From contig JACPEY010000027.1 of NCBI GenBank assembly GCA_016183245.1, positions 1-36,714 of the forward strand: a DNA stretch of 36,714 bases, in the 5' to 3' direction. Source of the stretch: Candidatus Daviesbacteria bacterium (lineage in GTDB: Bacteria > Patescibacteriota > Microgenomatia > Daviesbacterales > UBA10151). A program made the translations under genes and the position numbers. Shown in pieces: positions 287 through 30,250 of this stretch (positions are counted from its first letter, which is position 1; every line of letters starts with the position of its first letter). The notes under the pieces are model-generated. The model made no database searches, had not been told where the DNA came from, and saw only the letters and a list, made by a program, of their open reading frames with translations.

Positions 287-395
287 CTGTCATTCTGGAG
301 ACGAACACTTCGACTTCGCTCAGTGTAAACTCCGTGAGGACTCCAGAATCCAGATTCTGGATGCGGTCGCCGAGGCGACCTTACCAGAATGACAG
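287..395. repeat. Palindromic repeat element, intergenic copy
   Basis: The outer arms CTGTCATTCTGG and CCAGAATGACAG are perfect 12-bp inverted repeats. Inner inverted modules include CCAGAATC/GATTCTGG and GGTCGCCGAGGCGACC. The element lies between two minus-strand genes. Read on the plus strand it encodes a peptide containing TPESRFWMRSPRRPYQ, almost the same as the peptide inserted in the polyprenyl synthase at 14002-14085. The element is therefore open in that frame even where it is not part of a gene. The rest of 231-440 shows no gene. Confidence 0.9.
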
Positions 396-4875: not shown

Positions 4876-6060
4876 ATGACCACAAAAACTGTATATAATT
4901 TCCCTGAAGGAAAATTAGGGCCTGATTTTGCCAAAGAAAACTTGAAAAACTTCAAGCAGTTAATCGATGCTGCACTCTCTTTTGTGGTGGTTTCAATGCC
5001 AGGAGTTGGTGTTTCTTATTTTTTAAAATATCTGGCTACCCAAAACTTCGCTCGCTTTATTCATGTTGATTTATACAATCTCCCCACCCTTTCTCAACAC
5101 GAATTCTATAAATTACTGCTTTCTGAACTGGGCGGCATGCCCGGGTCAAAAACAGATGAGCAGATGCTCACAGAAATCAAGAAGGCTTTAAACCTGCTTT
5201 CCCAAAATCGGGAAAAGATTGTGATCATTTTCAGCCGGTTTGATCAATTAAAAGGGCAGTTTGACTGGAATTTTTTATCAAATATCCAAAGCCTGACAAC
5301 TGTTTCGCCGGGCTCGCCTCGCTCAACTCGAGTCGAAGCGGGCAAAATTGTATTAATCTTTACCGCTACTACACCCTTACACGATATTGCACCTGATGCC
5401 TTAAGCGGCGGAAATTTGAATTTCTATTCTGAGAACCTATATTTCAAGCCATATTCTGCGCGTGATTTAGAAAAACTCCTCAGTATTGAACCGGCAAGGC
5501 CGGGCCTTGCAAAACCAACACTGGAGAAGTTATTAGCTCTTTCAGGCGGCCATAACCAGCTTTTACATATCTTACTAAGCTCTCAAAAACAGCATAATCT
5601 GCTTCTGGACCATTTTGTGAAACTGCAGCTGAAAGAACTGGTTGATTATTTAGATTATCACCAGCGGAAAACTTTACAAAAAATTGCCCTGGGCAAGAAT
5701 GTGAATGAAGTGGATGAATATTTACTGGGCGTGGGCATGGTTAAAAATTCCAGCCTCCATCCTCCATCTTCTAACTTCCAGCTTTTTACTCCCCTTTTAA
5801 CCGAATACATTAAAACAAATATGCAGGTTAAGCTTCCGGTAAAAGAAGCAAAGCTTTTTAAGCTGCTGCGAGCTAATATGGGCAGGACTGTATCAAAAGA
5901 TGAAATCTTTAACGTGGTTTGGCAGGGCCATTCTGAAGGAGCCACAGACTGGGCTTTGGATGCTTTAATTTACCGCTTAAGAAAACATCCATTCATGAAG
6001 AACAATAATTACATCATCGAAAGCCAGAAAAAGGTGGGATATTCCCTTATACAAACGTAG
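4876..6060 (+). CDS. AAA/STAND-like ATPase domain fused to an OmpR-type winged helix
   Basis: A 394-residue protein, probably a cytoplasmic regulator. The N-terminal half looks like a P-loop ATPase. PGVGVSYFL sits in the Walker A position but lacks the Lys of GK[ST], and IVIIFSRFDQL looks like Walker B. The last 70 residues (LFKLLRANMGRTVSKDEIF, then ALIYRLRKHP and ending KKVGYSLIQT) match the OmpR/PhoB-type winged helix, which binds DNA. No receiver domain is present. With its altered P-loop it may bind nucleotide weakly or not at all. Two small palindromic DNA modules are read through in frame, at 5306-5345 (giving SPGSPRSTRVEAG) and 5494-5510 (giving PARPGLA). It is the only clear DNA-binding regulator in the window apart from the toxin-antitoxin proteins. 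Confidence 0.7.
   Translation: MTTKTVYNFPEGKLGPDFAKENLKNFKQLIDAALSFVVVSMPGVGVSYFLKYLATQNFARFIHVDLYNLPTLSQHEFYKLLLSELGGMPGSKTDEQMLTEIKKALNLLSQNREKIVIIFSRFDQLKGQFDWNFLSNIQSLTTVSPGSPRSTRVEAGKIVLIFTATTPLHDIAPDALSGGNLNFYSENLYFKPYSARDLEKLLSIEPARPGLAKPTLEKLLALSGGHNQLLHILLSSQKQHNLLLDHFVKLQLKELVDYLDYHQRKTLQKIALGKNVNEVDEYLLGVGMVKNSSLHPPSSNFQLFTPLLTEYIKTNMQVKLPVKEAKLFKLLRANMGRTVSKDEIFNVVWQGHSEGATDWALDALIYRLRKHPFMKNNNYIIESQKKVGYSLIQT
5306..5345. repeat. Short palindromic module inside the ATPase gene
   Basis: The core GGCTCGCCTCG...GAAGCGGGC is read in frame. The same module occurs inside SufB (29201-29229) and nested in the larger element of mevalonate kinase (around 18626-18658), so it is a mobile or exchangeable sub-unit of the repeat family. 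Confidence 0.7.
5494..5510. repeat. Perfect 17-bp palindrome in coding sequence
   Basis: GCAAGGCC, a central G, then GGCCTTGC. It is read in frame as part of PARPGLAKP in the ATPase/winged-helix protein. It is GC-rich against an AT-rich background. Confidence 0.6.
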
Positions 6061-6275
6061 ATTATATTTAACTTGCATTTTTGACTTTTGAATTTTGATT
6101 TTTGACTTTCTCAATCACCTCATACAATACTATCCCCAAAGACACCATAACATTAAGGCTAATATTGACTCCAAACAACTCTCATGCCCTACAACTAAAC
6201 AGATTGGCAGCTTATATTCAAACTGATCATAAGGAACACTTTTTTTACTCTGCTCTATTGCAATAACCAGCCCCC

Positions 6276-6357
6276 TGTCATTCCGAGTGATTAGCGAGGA
6301 ATCTCCAGATTTGTTTTTAATCTTGAGATCCTTCGTCGAGGACTCCTCAGAATGACA
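6276..6357. repeat. Palindromic repeat element inside the trmH-like gene
   Basis: The arms TGTCATTCCGAG and CTCAGAATGACA are inverted with one mismatch. The element is open in the gene's frame and encodes residues about 108-135 (CHSEESSTKDLKI and onward), between conserved segments of the methyltransferase. Confidence 0.85.
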
Positions 6358-6582
6358 ATTCCATAGACTTCTCACTTTCTTAATGGCTTCAACCGCACTC
6401 TCACAATATTCCCATTCCACCCAATCTGTAGTGTTAATCGAGGCTTTTTTAATCCTGGGATTAGGCGGGATTTCCGTCCCTCCGCAAAGATAAATTTTTT
6501 TGGCAGCTACCGCATCAGCCAACCGGAAGATCGAACCCACATTATAAGTATCCAAAACATTATCTAAAATTATATAGATCTC

Positions 6583-6625
6583 GCTATTGGCTATTGGCTT
6601 TTGGCTATTGGCTTTTGGCTGCGAA
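6583..6625. repeat. Short tandem repeat GCTATTGGCTTTTGG
   Basis: Copies of TATTGGCTTTTGGC follow each other inside the 5' part of the trmH-like gene and encode QPKANSQKPIANSE. The family normally passes directly into the first beta strand here, so this looks like an inserted low-complexity tract. Confidence 0.55.
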
Positions 6626-6662
6626 CCGCTAATAGCTAAGGGCGAATAGCTTCTCAACTGCT

Positions 6663-6715
6663 TTGCATTTAATTTCATGTGTATTATGATATATGAAAAT
6701 GAAGCAATTTGCCAA
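6663..6715. promoter_or_regulatory. Divergent, overlapping leaderless promoters
   Basis: Plus strand: TTGCAT (6663-6668), 16 bp, TATGAT (6685-6690), then 8 nt to the ATG at 6699. Minus strand: TTGGCA (6710-6715), 18 bp, TATCAT (6686-6691), then 7 nt to the ATG at 6678. The two -10 boxes overlap almost completely on opposite strands, so transcription of the two genes may be mutually exclusive. Both mRNAs would lack a leader. Confidence 0.55.
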
Positions 6716-12406: not shown

Positions 12407-12511
12407 TGTCATTCTGGGGACGAACGTAGTGAGGACTCCAGAATCTGTCTGATCCGTGGATTCTGGACTCGATGACTCGTCTGCAGCCTGCAAAGCGGGC
12501 CCAGAATGACA
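12407..12511. repeat. Palindromic repeat element between convergent genes
   Basis: The arms TGTCATTCTGGG and CCCAGAATGACA are perfect 12-bp inverted repeats. Inner modules CCAGAATC and GATTCTGG are also inverted. It fills most of the gap between the secreted protein (ends 12380) and uppS (ends 12541), where it could also serve as a bidirectional terminator hairpin. Confidence 0.9.
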
Positions 12512-13384: not shown

Positions 13385-14281
13385 TTACTTAATCCTTTTA
13401 ACTAAATACTCTCCCATCTGTTCTAATAATTTACTCATATTCTCATCTTTAGTTATATCTGATAATAAGTTCAATGCCTGTTTTGTATATTTTTCTGCGG
13501 CTTTTCCGGCCGACTCTAACTTTTCAATATTATCTGTTTCATTATCTAAAATATCGTCCCTGATTTGATAAGCTATTCCCAATTTTTCCCCAAACTGCCC
13601 AAATATCCTAATCTTTTCCTCGTTTGCGCCGGCTAAAATTGCTCCAAGTTGTAAAGGCCCGGCAATAGTATAGCAGGCGGTTTTAAATTTCATCACAATA
13701 AGCGGATCAGTATCCTCCAAATCCAACAATTCCCCCCAGGCAGTATTCATCATAATCTGAGAAAATAATTTAAGGGCAGAAATTTTATAATCTGTAGGGA
13801 AATCACTTTCTGAAATCAGCTTAAAACTTAAGAAAAAACCATAATCTGCTAAACTGATGGCCTGAGAGAGAGCGTAATGATTCCCTCCCAAAGCCTGATG
13901 CAAAGCAGGCTGGTCACGGCGCAAAGGACTTTGATCAATAATATCATCGTGAATCAAAACTGCGCTGTGGAGTATTTCATAAGCTGCCGCAACTTTATAA
14001 ATGTCATCCTGGTAAGGTCGCCTTGGCGACCGCATCCAGGATCTAGATTCTGGAGTCGTCGCTTCCGCTCCTCCCCAGAATGACATTCCTAACTGGTATC
14101 CCAAAACCACCAAAGCCCCCCTAATCCTCTTCCCTCCCCGGCATGATTTAATAAAAGCGAAAAGAAGAGGCACCAGCTTTTTATCAATTTCTCCGGCCTC
14201 ATTTAGTTGCTTATTTAAAATTCTTTCTATCTCTTTGTCTGTTGCTTTGACAGACTCTTTCAGATACTTTTCAAAATCCAC
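13385..14281 (-). CDS. Trans-polyprenyl diphosphate synthase (IspA/GGPPS family) with in-frame repeat insertion
   Basis: 298 residues from a GTG start. It condenses DMAPP or allylic diphosphates with IPP and supplies the primer for UppS. Both Asp-rich motifs are present: DDIID in ILHSAVLIHDDIIDQSPLRR and DDILD in AYQIRDDILDNE. SCRGGKRIRG is the conserved IPP-binding region. Residues about 66-94 (WGGAEATTPESRSWMRSPRR) are encoded by a palindromic repeat element. They fall between an N-terminal helix and the helix before the first DDxxD, where homologues have a short loop. Chain length cannot be read reliably. The gene is divergent from HMG-CoA reductase, with a shared 143-bp regulatory gap. 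TAAATT lies 6 nt before the GTG, consistent with a leaderless mRNA. Confidence 0.88.
   Translation of the reverse strand: MDFEKYLKESVKATDKEIERILNKQLNEAGEIDKKLVPLLFAFIKSCRGGKRIRGALVVLGYQLGMSFWGGAEATTPESRSWMRSPRRPYQDDIYKVAAAYEILHSAVLIHDDIIDQSPLRRDQPALHQALGGNHYALSQAISLADYGFFLSFKLISESDFPTDYKISALKLFSQIMMNTAWGELLDLEDTDPLIVMKFKTACYTIAGPLQLGAILAGANEEKIRIFGQFGEKLGIAYQIRDDILDNETDNIEKLESAGKAAEKYTKQALNLLSDITKDENMSKLLEQMGEYLVKRIK
14002..14085. repeat. Palindromic repeat element inside the polyprenyl synthase gene
   Basis: Arms TGTCATCCTGG and CCAGAATGACA (one mismatch), with inner GGTCGCCTTGGCGACC. The element is open in the minus-strand frame used by the gene. Its peptide TPESRSWMRSPRRPYQ nearly equals the one potentially encoded by the intergenic copy at 287-395. 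Confidence 0.9.
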
Positions 14282-14342
14282 TTGATAAATTTACCACAAG
14301 TCCTACATTAACGCCAATGTATACAGCTTCTTAACTTTACAT

Positions 14343-14372
14343 CAATTACTTGTACAATCGCACACTATATTG
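14343..14372 (-). promoter_or_regulatory. 30-bp operator-like element upstream of HMG-CoA reductase
   Basis: This 30-bp sequence matches the reverse complement of 18397-18426 at 28 of 30 positions. It contains the core CTTGTACAATCGCACACTAT. It lies in the divergent gap between the polyprenyl synthase and HMG-CoA reductase, 53 bp before the reductase ATG. Conservation over 30 bp in non-coding DNA in front of two genes of the same pathway suggests a transcription-factor site. Confidence 0.6.
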
Positions 14373-14389
14373 TCAACTCTAGAATCAAT

Positions 14390-14417
14390 TTGAGTTTTGA
14401 TAGACTTCTGTTAAAAT
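14390..14417 (+). promoter_or_regulatory. Putative promoter of the HMG-CoA reductase operon
   Basis: TTGAGT (14390-14395), 16 bp, TAAAAT (14412-14417), then 7 nt to the ATG at 14425. The message would be leaderless. The -35 match is only moderate. Confidence 0.5.
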
Positions 14418-14424
14418 TGGCTAC

Positions 14425-15726
14425 ATGAAGAACAAATTATCTTTACGCGACTTTCCCTCAGCGCAAAAAAGGCGTGAATTTTTGGAAACAGAATTGAATA
14501 TCAAACTGGATAATGTTGGATGTTTTAGTTTTACAGAAGACCAGGCTGTTGGCCGCAACATCGAAAACCTGATTGGAGCCACCCAGATCCCGTTAGGAAT
14601 AGCAGGCCCATTATTAATCCATTCTTCTGTCATCCTGAGGGAGTCTTCGACCGAAGGATCTCTGACGAATGTCAGAATCTCAAACAAGTCTTCGACCCTG
14701 AGGCTCAGACCCGAAGGGTTGAGAGATTCTTCGCTTGTCGCTCAGAATGACAGAACAGGAAAAAAATATTATCTCCCTCTAGCCACTACCGAGGGAGCGC
14801 TCGTTGCTTCTGCCTCCCGGGGGTGCAAAGCTATCAATCAATCAGGCGGAGCGGAAGTCTTGGTAGAAGAAGTCGGGGTAACACGCGGGCCTGTTTTTAA
14901 AGTTAAGGGTATCAGGGAAGGCATACAGATTAAACAGTGGATCAAAGACCATTTTGCTGATTTGGCCAAAGTTGCAGAGACAACTTCCCATCACTTACGC
15001 TTAAAAAAAATGGGCTGCAGGTTAGTAGGCAGAAACTTATTTGCCCGTTTTTATTATGATTGCCAAGATGCCATGGGCATGAATATGGCCACCATTGCTA
15101 CAGAGCAGGCAGTAAGTTTGATTGAACAGGGAACCGAAGCCAGATGTATTTCAATTGCCGGCAATTTTGATATTGATAAAAAACCCGGCTGGTTAAACTT
15201 TATCTCAGGCAGAGGCAAAAGGGTTTGGGCAGAAAGCGTTTTGAAAAAAGAAATTGTCAAATCAGTTTTAAAAACTACACCGGAAAAAATAGCTGAAGTT
15301 GTATATAGAAAATGCCAAATCGGCTCTGCCATGGCAGGTTCTTTAGGGTTTAATGCTCATTTTGCCAATGTGGTGGCAGCTGTTTTTGCAGCCACCGGCC
15401 AGGATTTAGCGCACGTTGCAGAAGGAAGTCTAGGCATAACTACTGCAGAAGTTTTGACAAACGGCGACCTTTATTTTTCAATCTATTTACCTTCTTTAAT
15501 GTGCGGTACTGTAGGCGGCGGAACACACCTGCCTGCCCAACAGGAAGCTTTATCTATTATGGGTGTTAAAGGGACCGGAGATAGTGTAAAATATGCCCAA
15601 ATTTTGGGATCTGCTATACTGGCGGTGGAAGTTTCCCTGATGGCCTCTCTGGCAGAAGGGTCATTGGCAAAAGCACACCAGAAACTAGGAAGAGGTCAAA
15701 AGTCAAAAATCAAAACTCAAAAGTAA
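14425..15726 (+). CDS. Hydroxymethylglutaryl-CoA reductase (class I-like) with in-frame repeat insertion
   Basis: 433 residues. It reduces HMG-CoA to mevalonate with NAD(P)H. ENLIGATQIPLGIAGP and LATTEGALVAS (catalytic Glu) lie in the N-terminal part. DAMGMNMAT is the cofactor motif, GRGKRVWAE has the catalytic Lys, GQDLAHVAEG the Asp, GTVGGGTHLP is conserved, and SLAKAHQKLGRG has the C-terminal catalytic His, so the active-site set is complete. Residues about 71-110 are encoded by a palindromic element. They replace the short loop between IAGPLL and the YYLPLATTEG strand. The last residues (GQKSKIKTQK) come from an AT-rich repeat tract. It is the first gene of the group with HMG-CoA synthase, thiolase and DUF35. 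Soluble: no membrane segments. Confidence 0.92.
   Translation: MKNKLSLRDFPSAQKRREFLETELNIKLDNVGCFSFTEDQAVGRNIENLIGATQIPLGIAGPLLIHSSVILRESSTEGSLTNVRISNKSSTLRLRPEGLRDSSLVAQNDRTGKKYYLPLATTEGALVASASRGCKAINQSGGAEVLVEEVGVTRGPVFKVKGIREGIQIKQWIKDHFADLAKVAETTSHHLRLKKMGCRLVGRNLFARFYYDCQDAMGMNMATIATEQAVSLIEQGTEARCISIAGNFDIDKKPGWLNFISGRGKRVWAESVLKKEIVKSVLKTTPEKIAEVVYRKCQIGSAMAGSLGFNAHFANVVAAVFAATGQDLAHVAEGSLGITTAEVLTNGDLYFSIYLPSLMCGTVGGGTHLPAQQEALSIMGVKGTGDSVKYAQILGSAILAVEVSLMASLAEGSLAKAHQKLGRGQKSKIKTQK
14636..14754. repeat. Palindromic repeat element inside HMG-CoA reductase
   Basis: Arms TCTGTCATCCTGAG and CTCAGAATGACAGA (one mismatch), with the inner hairpin TCTGACGAATGTCAGA. The whole 119-bp element is open in the plus-strand frame of the gene and adds about 40 Ser/Arg/Glu-rich residues. 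Confidence 0.92.
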
Positions 15727-16951: not shown

Positions 16952-18071
16952 ATGCATATCAAAGTAGCCGGTATTGGACTGACAAAATTCGGAGAACTCT
17001 GGGACAAATCTTTACTTGATTTGGCCCTGGAAGCATCAAGAGACGCTATTGCCGATTCGCAACTGGCTACCAGCCAAATTGATGCGGTTTTTGTAGGCAA
17101 TATGTTAATCGGCAAAATTGCCGGACAGGACCACTTAGGCCCGGTAATTGCATCATCTTTAGGGCTAAATTGTGCATCTTTCCGGATAGAAGGAGCTTGT
17201 GCTTCCGGGGGTTTGGCAATACACCTGGCAATCCAGGGCATTTTAGCCGGCACTTATAAAAACGTCCTGGTGGTGGGAGCAGAAAAAATGACAGATGCCC
17301 CGGCCAGTCAAATCACCTGGGCTTTAATGGGTGCTTCCTCCTCAAAAGAAAGAAAAGCAGGGCTGACTTTTCCTGCACTTTACGCTTTAATGACCCAGGC
17401 TCATATGCAAAAATACGGCACTACCCGGGAACAACTGGCTGAGGTATCAGTTAAAAATCATTATCACGCAACTTTTAACAAAAAAGCTCAATACCCGTTT
17501 GAAATCACCCCGGAGAAAGTCTTAAACAGCAGCCTAATCTCTTACCCGATTACCCTGTTTGACTCTTCCCCCAGTAATCCTGTCGGCAGACAGCAACACC
17601 AAAGGTGTGTATATCACGGGCAGCGCTGTTGCCTCTGATACAATTGACCTGGCGCAAAGGAAAAGTCTAACAGAGCTAAAAGCTACCCAAATCGCTTCCA
17701 AAAAAGCCCTGGAGCAGGCAGGGGTGGAAATTTCTGATATTAAAGTTGCAGAAGTTCACGATTGCTTTAGTATTGCAGAAATTATGGCTATGGAAGACCT
17801 GGGCTTTTGTCCCAAAGGCGAGGGAGGCAAATTTATTGCAGGAAAAAATACCAAACTGGGAGGCAAATGCCCGGTCAATACCTCAGGAGGACTTAAGGCG
17901 TGCGGACATCCGGTTGGGGCAACCGGTGTCAAACAAATTATTGAAATAACGGAACAGCTGCGGAAAAATGCCGGCACAAGACAAGTCAAAGATGCAAATA
18001 TCGGGTTGGCCCACAATGTCGGAGGCACCGGGGCAACAGTAGTAGTTCATGTTTTACAAAATTATGAGTAG
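16952..18071 (+). pseudogene. Acetyl-CoA acetyltransferase (thiolase), archaeal SCPx-type, frameshifted
   Basis: The enzyme would make acetoacetyl-CoA from two acetyl-CoA. The N-terminal part has IEGACASGGLAIH with the nucleophile Cys and VVGAEKMTD. The C-terminal part has VAEVHDCFSIAE, LKACGHPVGATG (His and Cys region) and GLAHNVGGTG. The first frame ends at 17638 after FDSSP. The second frame, open from about 17559, picks up with VILSADSNTKGVYI. The conserved VTDGAAA-like segment that should join them is absent. A deletion of about 20 bp near 17572, not a multiple of three, explains this. As written, the gene gives only a truncated product, although both halves keep good conservation. This could be a recent lesion or an assembly error. 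The gene overlaps the DUF35 gene by 8 nt. Confidence 0.85.
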
Positions 18072-18431: not shown

Positions 18432-19430
18432 ATGAGTAAGCAAATCATTGTTTCCGCTCCAGGCAAAATTCACCTTTTAGGAGAACATTTTGTGGTGTAC
18501 TTTGCACCGGCTATACTTGCTACCGTTGATCTAAGAACGACAGTTACAATCGCACGATGTCATTCTGGGGACTCCGACATTTTGTCGGAGGACACCAGAA
18601 TCTATTCAGGTAAGGATTCTGGACAGGCTCGCCTCGTCTCCGACGAGTCGGAGCGGGCCAGAATGACAGAAATAGTTGAACCTATCATCAAAAAACATCT
18701 TAAGATCAAAACCATTCCGCCTTATAAACTGGAGATCTCTTCCCAAATCCCCATTGGCGCAGGACTGGGATCATCTGCTGCAATTTCCGCTGCCTGCATT
18801 GCAGCCCTACTCTCTTTTCTAAAAGTTAAATGGGACTTGAACTTAATCAACAGCCTCACTTATGAGGCGGAAAAAGTCTTCCATGGCAACCCTTCCGGCG
18901 GTGATAATTCAACTATCACCTTTGGAAGTATCATTAGGTTTATCCGCGAGCCAAAAACCATCAAACCTTTAGGGATTAATATCCCGGAAAGGCTGGCCCA
19001 GAATTTTGTTTTAATAAATACCGGGAAACCCAAAAAATCAACCGGGGAAATGGTTTCTCTTGTCAAAGTTCTGCGCGAGAAAAACCCGCAGCTTTTTAAT
19101 GAGTCATTAAAAAGTCAAACTGAACTTGCAGAAAAACTTTTACCGGTATTAAAAAGCGGTGACAGCAGCAAGTTTATTAAAATAATCAGGCTGGGAGAAA
19201 AAAACCTGGAAGCAATCGGGGTAGTTTCCAAAACTTCTCAAAAAATTATCAGAAAGATTGAAAAAGCAGGCGGTGCAGCCAAAATATGCGGAGCCGGATC
19301 AACAACAGGCCCGACAGGAATCATCCTTGCCTACCACCCGGACAAAACAAAGGTAGAAAAAATTGCCAGGTCTTACAAACTCCCCTATTTTAGTACTACC
19401 CTGGGGGTTGAAGGAGTCAGACAGGAATAG
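18432..19430 (+). CDS. Mevalonate kinase (GHMP family) with in-frame repeat insertion
   Basis: 332 residues. It phosphorylates mevalonate at the 5-hydroxyl with ATP. VSAPGKIHLLGEH is GHMP motif 1, IPIGAGLGSSAAISAA the ATP-binding motif 2, and AKICGAGSTTGPTG motif 3. HGNPSGGDNSTITFG is the specific mevalonate-kinase signature with the catalytic Asp. Residues 43-79 are encoded by a palindromic element of exactly 111 bp, between the first beta strands and the helix before motif 2, where homologues have a variable loop. The start is 12 nt after the DUF35-downstream element, close to the operator-like 30-bp site. No Shine-Dalgarno sequence was found. Confidence 0.88.
   Translation: MSKQIIVSAPGKIHLLGEHFVVYFAPAILATVDLRTTVTIARCHSGDSDILSEDTRIYSGKDSGQARLVSDESERARMTEIVEPIIKKHLKIKTIPPYKLEISSQIPIGAGLGSSAAISAACIAALLSFLKVKWDLNLINSLTYEAEKVFHGNPSGGDNSTITFGSIIRFIREPKTIKPLGINIPERLAQNFVLINTGKPKKSTGEMVSLVKVLREKNPQLFNESLKSQTELAEKLLPVLKSGDSSKFIKIIRLGEKNLEAIGVVSKTSQKIIRKIEKAGGAAKICGAGSTTGPTGIILAYHPDKTKVEKIARSYKLPYFSTTLGVEGVRQE
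18558..18668. repeat. Palindromic repeat element (111 bp) inside mevalonate kinase
   Basis: Perfect 11-bp arms TGTCATTCTGG and CCAGAATGACA. Nested modules are CTCCGACATTTTGTCGGAG and GGCTCGCCTCGTCTCCGACG, the latter shared with the ATPase gene and sufB. The length is a multiple of three and the frame stays open. Confidence 0.93.
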
Positions 19431-21963: not shown

Positions 21964-22309
21964 TACAAATCATTTCATAGGTCTTACCAACAGAGCACCA
22001 GAAGTTGAGACAGAGATACTAGACGAACAAAAAGGATTTATCTCTACTCTATCCTGCCATATATTATTTTACGTAAATAAAATAGCTGTTCCTGATAAAA
22101 AGATGGATTCTTTTATCAGTGATTTTAATTTGATAAATCTAAGCCACGATATTTTAAATAAAGCTTTAATCGGACCAACAAAAGATCTGGAAGATAATAT
22201 TCAACTCCACAGCGCAGCACAAGCAGATTGTGATATTTTCTTAACCTATGATGCCGGATTGCTTAAACTTAAATTTTTTGGTAAAACAGAAATCAAATCT
22301 CAGTTATGA
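21944..22309 (+). CDS. PIN-domain toxin (VapC-like), probably altered active site
   Basis: 121 residues. VFLDTNHFIGLT at the N-terminus has the first catalytic Asp, LEDNIQLHSAAQADCDIFL and TYDAGLL hold the later acidic residues. This is the PIN ribonuclease fold. The Glu usually found in the second helix (around SCHILFYVNKI) is not visible, so activity could be reduced. The stop overlaps the ATG of the next gene, the phosphomevalonate-kinase-like GHMP kinase, by 4 nt (ATGA). The toxin is therefore translationally coupled to a metabolic gene. Confidence 0.72.
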   Translation: MARVFLDTNHFIGLTNRAPEVETEILDEQKGFISTLSCHILFYVNKIAVPDKKMDSFISDFNLINLSHDILNKALIGPTKDLEDNIQLHSAAQADCDIFLTYDAGLLKLKFFGKTEIKSQL

Positions 22310-23349
22310 AAAAAATTACTGTTTCAGCTCCGGGGAAATTAATGCTTTTTGGTGAACATGCTGTTGTTTACGGCAGACCTTGCATTGTGACAGCTGTAGG
22401 GCAGCGCATGAGGGCTACTGTAGAGCTTTTGGATAAGCCGGTATTTGAGCTTGAAGCTCCTGATGTTAAAGTGACAGGTTATAAAAAGCCAATGGATCAA
22501 TTAGGGGTTGACGACATTCCCAAAGGGGCTAAATTTGTGGAGATGGCGGTCAAGAATTTCATGGAGAATGTCATTCTGGGGAACGAAGTGACTCCAGAAT
22601 CAGCTCGATCCGTGGATTCTGGACGCGGTCGCCATGGCGACCTTGCCAGAATGACAGGAATCAGTATTACCACCCAATCAGAATTTTCTTCCCAATTCGG
22701 GTTTGGCTCCTCTTCTGCCTCAACAGTATGCGTTATTAAAGCTATATCAGAAATTACCGGCGCCAATTTAGACAACAGAGCTATTTTTGATCTGGCGTAC
22801 AAAACAGTTTTAGATATTCAGGGCAAAGGGTCGGGCTTTGATGTGGCCGCGGCAGTTTACGGAGGAACTTTGTACTACATTACACCCGGCAAAACCATCG
22901 AACCCTTAAATATTGAATCGCTTCCCTTAATTGTTGGTTATTCCGGCATTAAAGCAGACACAGTTACCTTAATGAATCAGGTTTCAGAATTGGCCCAGGA
23001 AAATCCCCAGATGGTAGAAGATATCTACAATAATATTGGAAAGTTGGTAGAGCAAGCTAAAGTAGCTATCTTGAGTAAAGATTGGACTACCTTAGGTGAG
23101 CTCATGAATTCTAACCAGAAGCTGCTGGAAAACCTCGGAGTAAGCATCGAAAAGTTCGATAATATGATTTTAGGCGCTAAAGCGGCTGGAGCATATGGGG
23201 CAAAACTGTCCGGTGCCGGCGGCGGCGACTGCATGATTGCCTTATCCCCTGAAGAAAAAACTCAGGCTGTCAAAGACGGGATCACTTCCGCCGGCGGGCA
23301 GGTAATAGAAGTTGAAGCAAGCGTCCAAGGTGCTAGAATCGAGGACTAG
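22306..23349 (+). CDS. GHMP kinase, probably phosphomevalonate kinase, with in-frame repeat insertion
   Basis: 347 residues. VSAPGKLMLFGEHAVVYG is GHMP motif 1, FGFGSSSASTVCVI motif 2, and GAKLSGAGGGDCMIAL motif 3. KGSGFDVAAAVYGG resembles phosphomevalonate kinases rather than mevalonate kinase, which is already supplied by 18432-19430. It would turn mevalonate 5-phosphate into the 5-diphosphate. A second mevalonate kinase cannot be excluded from sequence alone. Residues about 88-117 (GNEVTPESARSVDSGRGRHG and onward) are encoded by a palindromic element between VKNFM and the ISITTQSEF strand. The 4-nt overlap with the toxin stop suggests coupling. A separate repeat follows the stop. Confidence 0.8.
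   Translation: MKKITVSAPGKLMLFGEHAVVYGRPCIVTAVGQRMRATVELLDKPVFELEAPDVKVTGYKKPMDQLGVDDIPKGAKFVEMAVKNFMENVILGNEVTPESARSVDSGRGRHGDLARMTGISITTQSEFSSQFGFGSSSASTVCVIKAISEITGANLDNRAIFDLAYKTVLDIQGKGSGFDVAAAVYGGTLYYITPGKTIEPLNIESLPLIVGYSGIKADTVTLMNQVSELAQENPQMVEDIYNNIGKLVEQAKVAILSKDWTTLGELMNSNQKLLENLGVSIEKFDNMILGAKAAGAYGAKLSGAGGGDCMIALSPEEKTQAVKDGITSAGGQVIEVEASVQGARIED
22569..22656. repeat. Palindromic repeat element inside the PMK-like kinase gene
   Basis: Perfect 11-bp arms TGTCATTCTGG and CCAGAATGACA, with inner CCAGAATC/GATTCTGG and GGTCGCCATGGCGACC. It is open in the plus-strand frame. The reading frame differs from that used in the polyprenyl synthase. Confidence 0.92.
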
Positions 23350-26608: not shown

Positions 26609-26689
26609 GTCATTGCGAGGAGGGAGTATGACGACCGACGAAGCAATCTAGATTGGAGCTAGATTGCTTCGCTAATCGCTCGCAATGAC
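26609..26689. repeat. Palindromic repeat element that supplies the 3' end of sufS
   Basis: Arms GTCATTGCGAG and CTCGCAATGAC are perfect. Inner GAAGCAATCTAG and CTAGATTGCTTC are also inverted. The last codons of sufS and its TAG stop (26659-26661) lie inside the element. The C-terminal peptide SLRAISEAI is encoded by it. Confidence 0.9.
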
Positions 26690-27999
26690 GTTACTAATTT
26701 ATCTACATCCTCCAGATTATTATAAATATAAAAACTAATTCTCACAGAAGATTTAACCCCCAATCTTTGATGAAGCGGCATGGCACAATGAGAACCGGCC
26801 CGTACTGCAATCCCGTCTTGATCCAGCAGACTGGCCACATCATGCGGATGGACCCCCGCCAGATTAAATGAAATAATGCCACCGCGCTTTTGAATCTCTA
26901 AAGGGCCATAAATATTCAACCCTTGCACTTTTTGCAGCTTTTCCAAAGCATATTCTGTCAAAGATTTTTCATGCTCTCTTACTTTATCCATTCCCAGCTT
27001 TTGCAAATAATCAATAGCTGCCCCAAACCCAATTACCCCTTCTATATTAGGTGTTCCGGCTTCAAATTTTTGAGGGCTGTCCAGATATTGGACCTCTTTT
27101 AGACTTACTTTGCTAACCATCCCGCCGCCTGTTAAAAATGGAGATAAACTTTGAGCAATACTTTTCCTCATCCAAAGCACGCCTACTCCGGAAGGGCCTA
27201 ACATTTTATGGGCGGAGAATGCATAAAAATCACAACCCAACTTTTTAACATCAACTTTCATATGCGGTACAGCCTGGGCTCCGTCTATTAAAACCAGAGC
27301 ACCGGCCTGGTGAGCTTTTTTAGTAATCTCTTCAACCGGATTAATTGTCCCCAAAACATTCGACACATGCGTAATCGCCACCAAATCTACTCCTTTCAGT
27401 TTTTTATCCAAGCCAGACAAGTCCAATTCCCCTTCTTTATTTATATCCAAAAAGTCCATTTTTGATTTTTGCTCTTTGATATTTGATATTACTATCTGCC
27501 ACGGCACTAAATTACTATGATGCTCCATGACTGAAACTAAAATTTTGCCATTTTTTTTGTCATCCTGAGCCCGAAGGGCGAAGGATCTCCCACGAATGTG
27601 GGCCTCAAATAAATTGGGAGATTCCTCGCTTCGCCCGCCTCTGGCGTGGCTTCGCTCGGAATGACAATAGCGAAGGGTTTTTGCTACTAAATTTATGCTC
27701 TCTGTAGTATTTTTGGTAAAAATAATTTCTTCCCTTTCAGCATTAATTAACTTAGCCGCTTTATCCCTGACTTCCTCATACTTCCGGGTAGCCTCCTCAG
27801 ATTCCCAATAAATCCCCCTGTGCACATTAGCTGAGTATTGTTCATAAAAATCAGTCACAGCCTTAATTACCTGTTTAGGTTTCAAAGAAGTCGAAGCAGA
27901 ATCAAAATAAATTAATTTCCTGCTGCTCTTCCTTAATATGGGAAAGTCATCTTTCCTACCATATTTTTGACTTTTGACTTTTGAATTTTGACTTTTCAT
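26659..27999 (-). CDS. sufS: Cysteine desulfurase SufS with in-frame repeat insertion
   Basis: 446 residues, about 40 more than usual. A PLP enzyme that takes sulfur from cysteine for Fe-S assembly. IYFDSASTSLKPKQV, ANVHRGIYWES, SAHKMLGPSGVG (PLP Lys) and RAGSHCAMPLHQRLG (catalytic Cys) are all intact. Residues about 112-148 (CHSERSHARGGRSEE and onward) come from a palindromic element between INLVAKTLR and KILVSVMEHHSNLVPW. The first 13 residues (MKSQNSKVKSQKY) look like translation of the AT-rich repeat family. The C-terminus ends inside another palindromic element. The start overlaps the sufB stop by 4 nt. Confidence 0.92.
   Translation of the reverse strand: MKSQNSKVKSQKYGRKDDFPILRKSSRKLIYFDSASTSLKPKQVIKAVTDFYEQYSANVHRGIYWESEEATRKYEEVRDKAAKLINAEREEIIFTKNTTESINLVAKTLRYCHSERSHARGGRSEESPNLFEAHIRGRSFALRAQDDKKNGKILVSVMEHHSNLVPWQIVISNIKEQKSKMDFLDINKEGELDLSGLDKKLKGVDLVAITHVSNVLGTINPVEEITKKAHQAGALVLIDGAQAVPHMKVDVKKLGCDFYAFSAHKMLGPSGVGVLWMRKSIAQSLSPFLTGGGMVSKVSLKEVQYLDSPQKFEAGTPNIEGVIGFGAAIDYLQKLGMDKVREHEKSLTEYALEKLQKVQGLNIYGPLEIQKRGGIISFNLAGVHPHDVASLLDQDGIAVRAGSHCAMPLHQRLGVKSSVRISFYIYNNLEDVDKLVTSLRAISEAI
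27558..27666. repeat. Palindromic repeat element inside sufS
   Basis: Arms TGTCATCCTGAGC and GCTCGGAATGACA (two mismatches), with inner CCACGAATGTGGG. It is open in the minus-strand frame of the gene. Confidence 0.9.
27955..27998. repeat. AT-rich repeat unit at the sufS start
   Basis: TTTTTGACTTTTGACTTTTG and following TTTGACTTTT units cover the first codons of sufS. It is a half-copy of the AT-rich family. Confidence 0.55.
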
Positions 28000-29348
28000 G
28001 CCGCTCCTTCCATTTCCAGCCTGATCAGTTGATTCAGTTCAATGGCATATTCCATAGGCAATTCGCGAACCAAAGGCTTGATAAAACCATTAACTATCAT
28101 AGCTTCAGCTTCTTCCTTTTCTATCCCTCTGCTTTGCAGGTAAAAAATTTGTTCTTCTGAAATTTTAGAGATCGTAGCCTCATGCGACAACTCACAGTTA
28201 GCACCAATGGCAGAAATTGCCGGGTAGGTTTCCGATTTGGACCTCTCGTCCATGATTAAGGCCTGGCAAATGGTTTTGGATTTAACATCTTTGACCCCGG
28301 GTGCAATTTTTACCAAACCCCGGTAAGAGGTTTTGCCGCCATGGTGGCTGATAGATTTAGACCTAATTACCGATGAGGTTTTAGACGCAAGATGGATCGC
28401 TTTGCCACCGGTGTCTTGAACCTGTCCGGCCCCGGCCATGGCCAAAGAAAGCATATCTACTTTAGCACCACGGCCCACCAATAATGCTGAAGGGTATTTC
28501 ATAGTCAGCTTTGACCCATTATTAAAATCCACCCACTCCATTACCCCATTTTCTTCCACTTTAGCTCTTTTGGTCACCAGGTTATAGACATTTTTGGACC
28601 AGTTTTGCACTGTGGTGTAGCGGACTCGGGCTCCATGTTTGACAATAATCTCCACCACTCCGGCATGCAAAGAGTCTGTGGTATATACCGGAGAAGTACA
28701 GCCTTCAATGTAGTGCACAAAACTACCGCGATCAGCAATGATTAAAGTCCTTTCAAATTGACCAATATTTTTGGCATTGATCCGAAAATATGCCTGAAGG
28801 GGCAGAGAAATGGAAACTTTGGGCGGTACATAAATAAAACACCCCCCTGACCAGACTGCACTATTTAAAGAGGCAAATTTGTTATCATTTATTGGTATCA
28901 CGGTACCAAAATACTCTTTAACCAGCTCAGGATATTGCTGCAACCCTTCATCCATGCTTAAAAACACCACTCCCTGCTCTTTTAGGTCTTTTAGAAGCGA
29001 TCCATAGACCATTTCGCTGTCCCACTGGGCAGAAACTCCTGCTAAAAACTTTTGTTCTGCTTTGGGAATTCCCAATTTGTCATAAGTTCTTTTAATCTCT
29101 TTTGGCACATCTTTCCAGGCATGTTTCACTCCATTGCCGGATTTAATAAAATAGTGGATTTTATCAAAATCCAATCCGGACAAATCCCCGCCAAAAGCTG
29201 GCTCGCCTCGCTGAGCGGGCGAAGCGGGCATGGGAGCCTTTTGAAAGTATTCCAATGCCTGTAATCGGAGTTTTGTCATCCAGAAAGGATCTTTTTTATA
29301 AACAGAAACCTCTTCAACTATTTGCTTGCTTAAACCCTTAGTCATCAT
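27996..29348 (-). CDS. sufB: SufB, Fe-S cluster scaffold subunit
   Basis: 450 residues, normal size. SufB forms a complex with the ATPase SufC. The core shows SVSAQWDSEMVYG-like GVSAQWDSEMVYG, SAVWSGGCFIYVPP, FVHYIEGCTSP, HHGGKTSYRGLV and the C-terminal ELSHEATISKISEEQIFYL. No separate SufD follows, so a SufB-SufB homodimer with SufC is likely. Residues about 40-50 (ASPAQRGEPAF) interrupt the usual PMP-W-G-DLSGLDF stretch and match a short palindromic module. The start ATG at 29348 has GGGAG 7 nt upstream. It is 4 nt-overlapped by sufS. Confidence 0.93.
   Translation of the reverse strand: MMTKGLSKQIVEEVSVYKKDPFWMTKLRLQALEYFQKAPMPASPAQRGEPAFGGDLSGLDFDKIHYFIKSGNGVKHAWKDVPKEIKRTYDKLGIPKAEQKFLAGVSAQWDSEMVYGSLLKDLKEQGVVFLSMDEGLQQYPELVKEYFGTVIPINDNKFASLNSAVWSGGCFIYVPPKVSISLPLQAYFRINAKNIGQFERTLIIADRGSFVHYIEGCTSPVYTTDSLHAGVVEIIVKHGARVRYTTVQNWSKNVYNLVTKRAKVEENGVMEWVDFNNGSKLTMKYPSALLVGRGAKVDMLSLAMAGAGQVQDTGGKAIHLASKTSSVIRSKSISHHGGKTSYRGLVKIAPGVKDVKSKTICQALIMDERSKSETYPAISAIGANCELSHEATISKISEEQIFYLQSRGIEKEEAEAMIVNGFIKPLVRELPMEYAIELNQLIRLEMEGAA
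29201..29229. repeat. Short palindromic module inside sufB
   Basis: GCTCGCCTCG and GAAGCGGGC flank a short centre. It is the same unit as in the ATPase gene (5306-5345) and in the mevalonate kinase element. Confidence 0.7.
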
Positions 29349-29455: not shown

Positions 29456-30250
29456 CTATATTCCCGCATAACCTTTTTCCTCAATTTCTCTTGCCAGTTT
29501 GACCTGACCGGATTTAACAATTCTCCCCTCTTTCAGAACATGGACTACATTTGGTTTGACATATTTTAAAATTTTTTGATTATGGGTAATCAGCAGTACA
29601 CCAGTTCCCTTTTTTACTAGTTGATTAACCACTTCAGCTGCCTTTTTTAAAGTATCTACATCCAAACCTGAATCAATTTCATCCAAAATCACAAATTTTG
29701 GCTGGAGACTTAACAGCATCAAAAGCTCTGCCTTTTTCTTCTCTCCCCCGGAAAAGCCGTCATTTATAAAGCGCTCCAGCATTTCCTCTTTTAATCCCAT
29801 ATTTTTGGCCTGCTTTTTAACAGTTTCATAAAACTCCCTGATATCAGCTTTGCCATCGCCTGTAATACTTTTATAGGAAGACCAAATTAACTGCCCTAAA
29901 CTCACTCCAGGCACAGCCACCGGATTTTGGAAAGATAAAAATAAGCCTAATTTTGCTCTTTCATTAGGTTTTAAACTGAGTAAATTTTTTCCACCCAGCT
30001 CTACTGAACCGGAAACCGCCTGATAAGCCGGATGGCCCATCAAAACCAAAGCCAAAGAAGACTTGCCAGACCCGTTCGGCCCCATCAAAGCATGTACTTC
30101 CCCGCTCTTAACTGTTAAATTAACCCCGAAAACCACCCTCTTCCCTCGCCTCGCCGACTTGTCCACCGGAGCTTCAGCGAAGGTGGAAGCTTCATGCGAA
30201 GACGGGTCAACCTCAACTGATAACCCTTTAACCTCAAAATTACTCTTCAT
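29456..30250 (-). CDS. sufC: SufC, ABC-type ATPase of the SUF complex, with in-frame insertion
   Basis: 264 residues. Walker A is GPNGSGKSS, the signature is FSGGEKKKAELL, Walker B is FVILDEIDSGLD and the switch His is in LLITHN. It energises the SufB scaffold. About 20 residues near 15-35 (PSSHEASTFAEAPVDKSARR) are inserted between LSVEVD and GKRVVFGV. They are encoded by a repeat module with inverted CCACC/GGTGG. The insertion lies in the first beta hairpin, away from the nucleotide site. TAAAAT lies 7 nt before the ATG at 30250, consistent with leaderless transcription. It is the first gene of the suf operon. Confidence 0.92.
   Translation of the reverse strand: MKSNFEVKGLSVEVDPSSHEASTFAEAPVDKSARRGKRVVFGVNLTVKSGEVHALMGPNGSGKSSLALVLMGHPAYQAVSGSVELGGKNLLSLKPNERAKLGLFLSFQNPVAVPGVSLGQLIWSSYKSITGDGKADIREFYETVKKQAKNMGLKEEMLERFINDGFSGGEKKKAELLMLLSLQPKFVILDEIDSGLDVDTLKKAAEVVNQLVKKGTGVLLITHNQKILKYVKPNVVHVLKEGRIVKSGQVKLAREIEEKGYAGI
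30146..30207. repeat. Repeat module inside sufC
   Basis: Contains GTCCACCGGAGCTTCAGCGA and AGGTGGAAGCTTC, with inverted CCACC and GGTGG. About 60 bp, GC-rich and in frame. Confidence 0.7.

Follow-up and report, generated by a model that had tools for sequence, protein, structure and literature searches.

The CGTC-tagged REP superfamily, which includes RPE-4 and RPE-6 of Rickettsia and dRS3 of Neisseria, has units with an unpaired CGTC tag (often TGTC), a stem of 8-9 bp starting with AT, a loop of 4-5 nt and an unpaired three-base tail with the consensus CCA (Di Nocera et al. 2013, PMC3733652). These units occur mostly as inverted dimers, are also found inside genes and have no associated transposase; they show a bias to DNA repair genes, and uvrA carries two inserts (PMC3733652). 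The Rickettsia palindromic elements (RPE; Ogata et al. 2000, 2002), of about 100-150 bp, lie in frame in many unrelated metabolic genes, where they are predicted to be translated as extra loops (PMC10969869). REPINs, or GTAG REPs with RAYT transposases, are non-autonomous inverted dimers of short palindromes (PMC3116915). Enterobacterial MITEs of the RU/ERIC type, as described in the sections of Delihas (2007, PMC2759123) drawn on here, carry ORFs inside genes and are small mobile repeats that add in-frame amino acids.

Here we describe a palindromic element in the HMG-CoA reductase (HMGR) gene of an uncultured Daviesbacteria-like Microgenomates bacterium (genome G000; 1.08 Mb in 73 contigs). 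The window is the whole 36,714-nt stretch of contig JACPEY010000027.1 that was analysed, and coordinates refer to it unless another contig is named.

Results

The HMGR gene and its extra segment

The best solved relative of the ORF at 14425-15726 is 6hr7 (Table 1). By fold (Foldseek) and by its catalytic Glu, Lys, Asp and His (alignment) the protein is a class I HMGR, and the top Foldseek matches of its model are archaeal and human class I enzymes. E123, K252/K253, D327 and H418 are invariant in a 58-row alignment, and the catalytic residues are therefore kept. A second HMGR copy was searched for in the genome and none was found, and the branch of this species in the HMGR tree (0.32) is not longer than that of its sister (0.44). 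Together, the single copy, the conserved catalytic residues and the unaccelerated branch argue for a working gene. Elsewhere in the cluster an acetoacetyl-CoA thiolase-like gene (16952-18071) is split into two overlapping ORFs; near 17570-17590 a conserved region is interrupted by a frameshift and lacks a few codons, which may be either real damage or an assembly error.

From GP to the LPLATTEG strand this HMGR has 54 residues, compared with 13-14 in most other HMGRs, and it thus has about 40-41 extra; the roughly 41 added residues are placed between GPLLI and KKYYLPLATTEG. They correspond to a 125-nt nested palindrome (TGTCATCCTGAG...CTCAGAATGACA) that is read in frame as codons 68-110 (S-VIL...QND-R). 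Its arms (14625-14642 and 14738-14755) are 89% complementary and, across 61 genomic copies, complementarity is at chance level immediately beyond TGTCAT...ATGACA, which sets sharp ends at 14628 and 14752. The plan of a tagged, tailed REP-like unit (Table 1) is found in 95 of 122 half-elements as against 3.5% in shuffled controls. The element strand has a predicted fold of -57.7 kcal/mol (z = -4.3), and an Rfam search of 14000-15000 returned no match.

In an AlphaFold2 model built from 58 sequences, mean pLDDT is 87.8 and most of the core exceeds 90, while values of 45-59 occur in blocks spanning residues 71-110. Strands 57-72 and 113-120 flank this loop, and the element occupies the turn of a hairpin whose second strand runs into ATTEG. 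The protein is thus predicted to combine a confident class I core with a disordered surface loop of about 40 residues. An initial annotation of this DNA had recognized an in-frame, repeat-derived segment of about 40 residues in place of a short turn, with the catalytic Glu, Lys, Asp and His remaining, all of which the dispersed genomic copies, the terminal inverted repeats, the residue counts and the alignment bear out. Its limits of 14636-14754 do not hold, as the start was placed 8 nt too far in. Structure prediction had been proposed there as the check, with a disrupted core as an adverse sign; the core is predicted with high confidence and without such disruption.

Table 1. Coordinates of the HMGR gene, its element and other copies of the repeat in the window.
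Feature	Position	Strand	Basis
HMG-CoA reductase gene, class I-like	14425..15726	+	433 aa; PF00368 E=4.9e-119; fold match 6hr7/6hr8 and human HMGR
Palindromic insertion element, inverted dimer of two TGTC-tagged REP-like units	14628..14752	none	terminal inverted repeats, fold, genome-wide copies, ends from 61 copies
Left REP unit: TGTC tag, ATCCT...AGGAT stem, CTC tail	14628..14662	+	sequence; unit plan shared with other half-elements
Spacer with two smaller hairpins (TGACGAATGTCA; CTTCGACCC...GGGTTG)	14663..14722	+	sequence, predicted fold
Right REP unit, inverted: TGTC, ATTCT...AGAAT, CTC on minus strand	14723..14752	-	sequence; unit plan
Intergenic repeat copy	288..394	none	repeat match, ORF layout
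Intergenic repeat copy	12407..12511	none	repeat match, ORF layout
Copy in SpoU rRNA methylase gene 6130-6678(-)	6276..6357	-	in frame
Copy in polyprenyl (GGPP-type) synthase gene 13385-14281(-)	14002..14085	-	in frame; rare third frame, MSFWGGAEATTPESRSW
Copy in GHMP kinase gene 18432-19430, mevalonate kinase by context	18558..18668	+	in frame
Copy in GHMP kinase gene 22306-23349, phosphomevalonate kinase by context	22569..22656	+	in frame
Copy in SufS-like aminotransferase class V gene 26659-27999(-)	27558..27666	-	in frame

A repeat dispersed over the genome and the class

The HMGR element is one copy of a repeat dispersed over the whole genome. With at most one mismatch, the half-site TGTCATYCTGAG occurs 130 times in the 1.08 Mb, compared with three times for a reversed control, and over 100 nt the HMGR copy shares 91% identity with an intergenic copy on contig 46. 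Given these 130 half-sites against three and the z-score of the fold, the extra segment in HMGR is not a chance sequence. Of 281 genomes in the class, 112 contain the exact half-site, and control hits are very few.

Pairing half-sites gave 61 complete elements in about 215 kb of stretches fetched around matches, so that element counts apply to stretches selected for the repeat and should not be read as frequencies over the whole genome. A few ends set by the pairing rule are wrong; the 187-nt copy in CarB, for example, really occupies 16241-16316 of C16. Nearly all 61 elements have TGTC at both outer ends. No target-site duplication was found among the 61 copies, in which 2-nt matches at the ends lie within the spread of other offsets. 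The genome holds three genes with a Y1 transposase domain and none is flanked by the repeat: no half-site lies beside those in L045-L046, and in L047 the only half-sites are those of uvrA, about 1 kb off. Several intergenic copies (G000 contigs 5, 25, 40 and 48, and 12407-12511 of the window) have longer outer flanks in common (AAAACCCTAA...TTAGGGTTTTGA), which suggests a larger compound palindrome.

Copies inside other genes

In-gene copies were defined as those in frame and without a stop in an ORF of at least 150 aa; 25 of the 61 elements, in 23 genes, are of this kind. The other 36 lie between ORFs or at ORF ends, and often a start or stop codon is no more than 10 nt away. Each of the 23 host ORFs has a Pfam match, some of the gene names being assigned by Pfam family and sequence only. 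CarB and UvrA have two copies each, those in uvrA (L097) being separate and both in frame (G000 contig 18, 45165-45237 and 45447-45543). Single copies are found in CysS, NusG, RplA (ribosomal protein L1), AtpG (ATP synthase gamma), RecF, an ATP-dependent DNA ligase, a GT4 glycosyltransferase, WecG, a Mur ligase, Cca (CCA transferase), TopA, a LeuRS-type synthetase, Fmt, UvrD, an ABC-2 membrane protein, SpoU, the polyprenyl synthase, HMGR, two GHMP kinases and SufS.

The repeat enters its host genes in the VIL frame in 17 cases, in the CHS frame in seven and in the third frame in one; in TGTCATYCTGAG (TGAG-type) copies the third frame runs into TGA at once. The used frames are open in 25 of 25 copies, which is partly by construction since an open ORF was a condition for counting a copy as in-gene, compared with 10 of 50 for the unused sense frames, and any one frame is open in 8-19% of intergenic copies, about as in shuffled sequence or less. 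Even so, the contrast marks the in-gene copies as a filtered subset. Independent support comes from gene integrity: as judged by ORF layout rather than homology, none of the 61 elements was seen to split a gene; if targets are random, most insertions into genes must have been lost. The lengths of the in-gene elements leave remainders of 0, 1 and 2 on division by three in 4, 12 and 9 cases, respectively, and therefore clean insertion with a fixed target duplication cannot explain all copies.

Other repeat families seem to have left loops in the window as well, in the SufB-like (27996-29348, PMPASPAQRGEPAFGGD) and SufC-like (29456-30250, SSHEASTFAEAPVDKSARRG) proteins and in a Trans_reg_C protein (4876-6060, TTVSPGSPRSTRVEAGK).

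The element and the HMGR turn in relatives

The 43-residue translation of the element matches SucD of G020 and PurL of G017, members of two further genera of this family. G067, a congener of G020, has a SucD that lacks the element and is 89-92% identical on either side; it is a natural empty site, with an exact junction left unfixed because the bases adjoining the element differ between the two genomes.

Most relatives have HMGRs without any loop at the turn. It is enlarged in six lineages: this species, G026, G031 (L123), G010, G006 (L120) and L133 (Levyibacteriota). The loops of the five further lineages are longer, palindrome-derived and mostly unrelated in sequence, and sit at the same hairpin tip. 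In G026 the turn holds a unit of the same repeat family (GTCATTCCGAACGAAGTGAGGAATCT), in L133 the insert ends in a related unit (GCTCGCGATGACA), and the HMGRs of G006, G008, G010 and G031 have other palindromes. A different hairpin of the CCTCCGGGG type, encoding GVKAHLRGV, is present at the same turn in L051, L053 and L120; the peptide DKKAHLRGG in PurL of G017 is similar to it. On a tree built without the insert columns, in which gains and losses look alike, the six insert-bearing rows need six separate changes, at least four of them forced by well-supported branches, and the differences between the insert sequences favour separate gains. The initial annotation had considered this an unusual place for an insertion. 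Since at least five other Microgenomates lineages have HMGRs with this turn enlarged, mostly by differing palindromes, it is rather a recurrently occupied, permissive site.

The polyprenyl synthase has one loop that carries differing inserts in this window, in G002 and in G010. The G010 insert in the GGPP synthase (TGTCATTCCTGCGAATGCAGGAATCCA...TGGATCCCCGCCTACGCGGGGATGACA) is a textbook CGTC-1-like REP dimer, with a true 8-bp stem and a CCA tail.

Discussion

It is very likely that the HMGR insert is a translated passenger repeat, built as an inverted TGTC-tagged REP dimer and tolerated because the turn is permissive, and not a device specific to HMGR. Under this scenario, two REP-like hairpin units with unpaired TGTC tags, inverted around a structured spacer, would form a miniature non-autonomous mobile repeat, one copy of which inserted into a surface beta-hairpin of HMGR, at its turn. 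In the frame it enters (xGTC ATC CTG..., the VIL frame) the repeat happens to be open, the total insert length preserves the reading frame, and the turn would tolerate the added residues. Because of this open frame, frame-preserving length and tolerant turn, HMGR may have stayed usable with the element as a translated, disordered and probably harmless loop. The element presumably moves by transposition, and copies that break genes were presumably purged by selection, leaving those in frame in exposed loops and those between genes.

HMGR is a classical control point, and this general knowledge, along with the repeated enlargement of the turn in related HMGRs, might suggest that the loop was recruited to regulate the enzyme through a binding partner, degradation or ligand gating and was kept by selection. 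However, a regulatory loop is very unlikely, as the loops vary in sequence and length among lineages, most relatives have none, the one studied here is predicted to be disordered, and the same peptide is found in SucD and PurL. Decay of HMGR to a pseudogene, or an insert created by misassembly of the metagenome-assembled genome, is even harder to sustain. The frameshifted thiolase of the same cluster does point to some damage or error in the contig, but the only HMGR of the genome keeps all invariant residues in an open 433-aa frame, its branch is not accelerated, and inserts of this kind recur at the turn in independent genomes, so that this reading is already largely excluded.

The element may also be imagined to remain untranslated, either excised from the RNA or skipped by the ribosome like the byp elements of Magnusiomyces mitochondria. 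The strong nested hairpin would suit such a mechanism, and there is a precedent in the bypassed palindromic inserts of a yeast mitochondrion (cited in PMC6649704). Yet an open frame would be needless in a bypassed element, whereas all in-gene copies are in frame and stop-free and the unused frames mostly are not, and 14000-15000 has no Rfam match; we regard this as scarcely credible. A wider reading, in which several unrelated palindrome families of Patescibacteria repeatedly re-seed the HMGR and GGPP synthase turns as a supply of new loops, some of them now functional, is unlikely.

To our knowledge, selfish palindromes that lie in frame in core genes have been regarded chiefly as a peculiarity of Rickettsia. 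The bacterium studied here, which belongs to another phylum and is streamlined and presumably host-dependent, has them in about 20 conserved genes, including genes for translation, replication and repair, the ATP synthase and at least four enzymes of isoprenoid synthesis. The open-licence literature yielded no account of palindromic repeats within genes of Patescibacteria. Thus, the kind of element is already known, while this family, in this phylum and with repeated capture of one enzyme turn, appears to be new. The repeated and independent filling of a single HMGR turn offers natural replicates, with which it can be asked where proteins are open to new sequence and whether loops of this origin ever become useful. 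It also calls for caution, as protein loops in genomes of this type may be DNA parasites rather than adaptations.

Among the described systems, the RU/ERIC-type MITEs resemble this repeat in being small mobile repeats that give in-frame residues, but they are an unrelated element group and, in the sections of the source drawn on here, offer far fewer examples in essential core genes. With REPINs it shares non-autonomous inverted dimers of short palindromes; it has no GTAG tag, however, and, unlike in REPIN/RAYT systems, the Y1 genes are not flanked by the repeat. Closer are the RPE, whose in-frame insertion into many unrelated genes is found here too (25 copies in 23 genes), although the host phylum differs and the likeness to RPE-4 and RPE-6 is one of tag and plan by description (PMC3733652).

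The CGTC REPs share with the Daviesbacteria repeat the C/TGTC tag, a stem starting with AT, a putative three-base tail, inverted dimers, intragenic copies and the lack of a linked transposase. Two inserts in uvrA are likewise common to both, and the copies in uvrD, recF, the DNA ligase gene and topA echo the bias to repair genes. The putative tail is mostly CTC (57 of 95 units) and CCA in five. The stem, however, has 5 bp with a tandem G.A interruption in most units instead of 8-9 bp, the loop is very variable instead of 4-5 nt, with hairpin units of 19 to 46 nt, and Patescibacteria are outside the phyla listed in PMC3733652. Since its stem and loop lengths fall outside the definition of the superfamily, we do not file the repeat as a member, but it appears to work like a CGTC REP.
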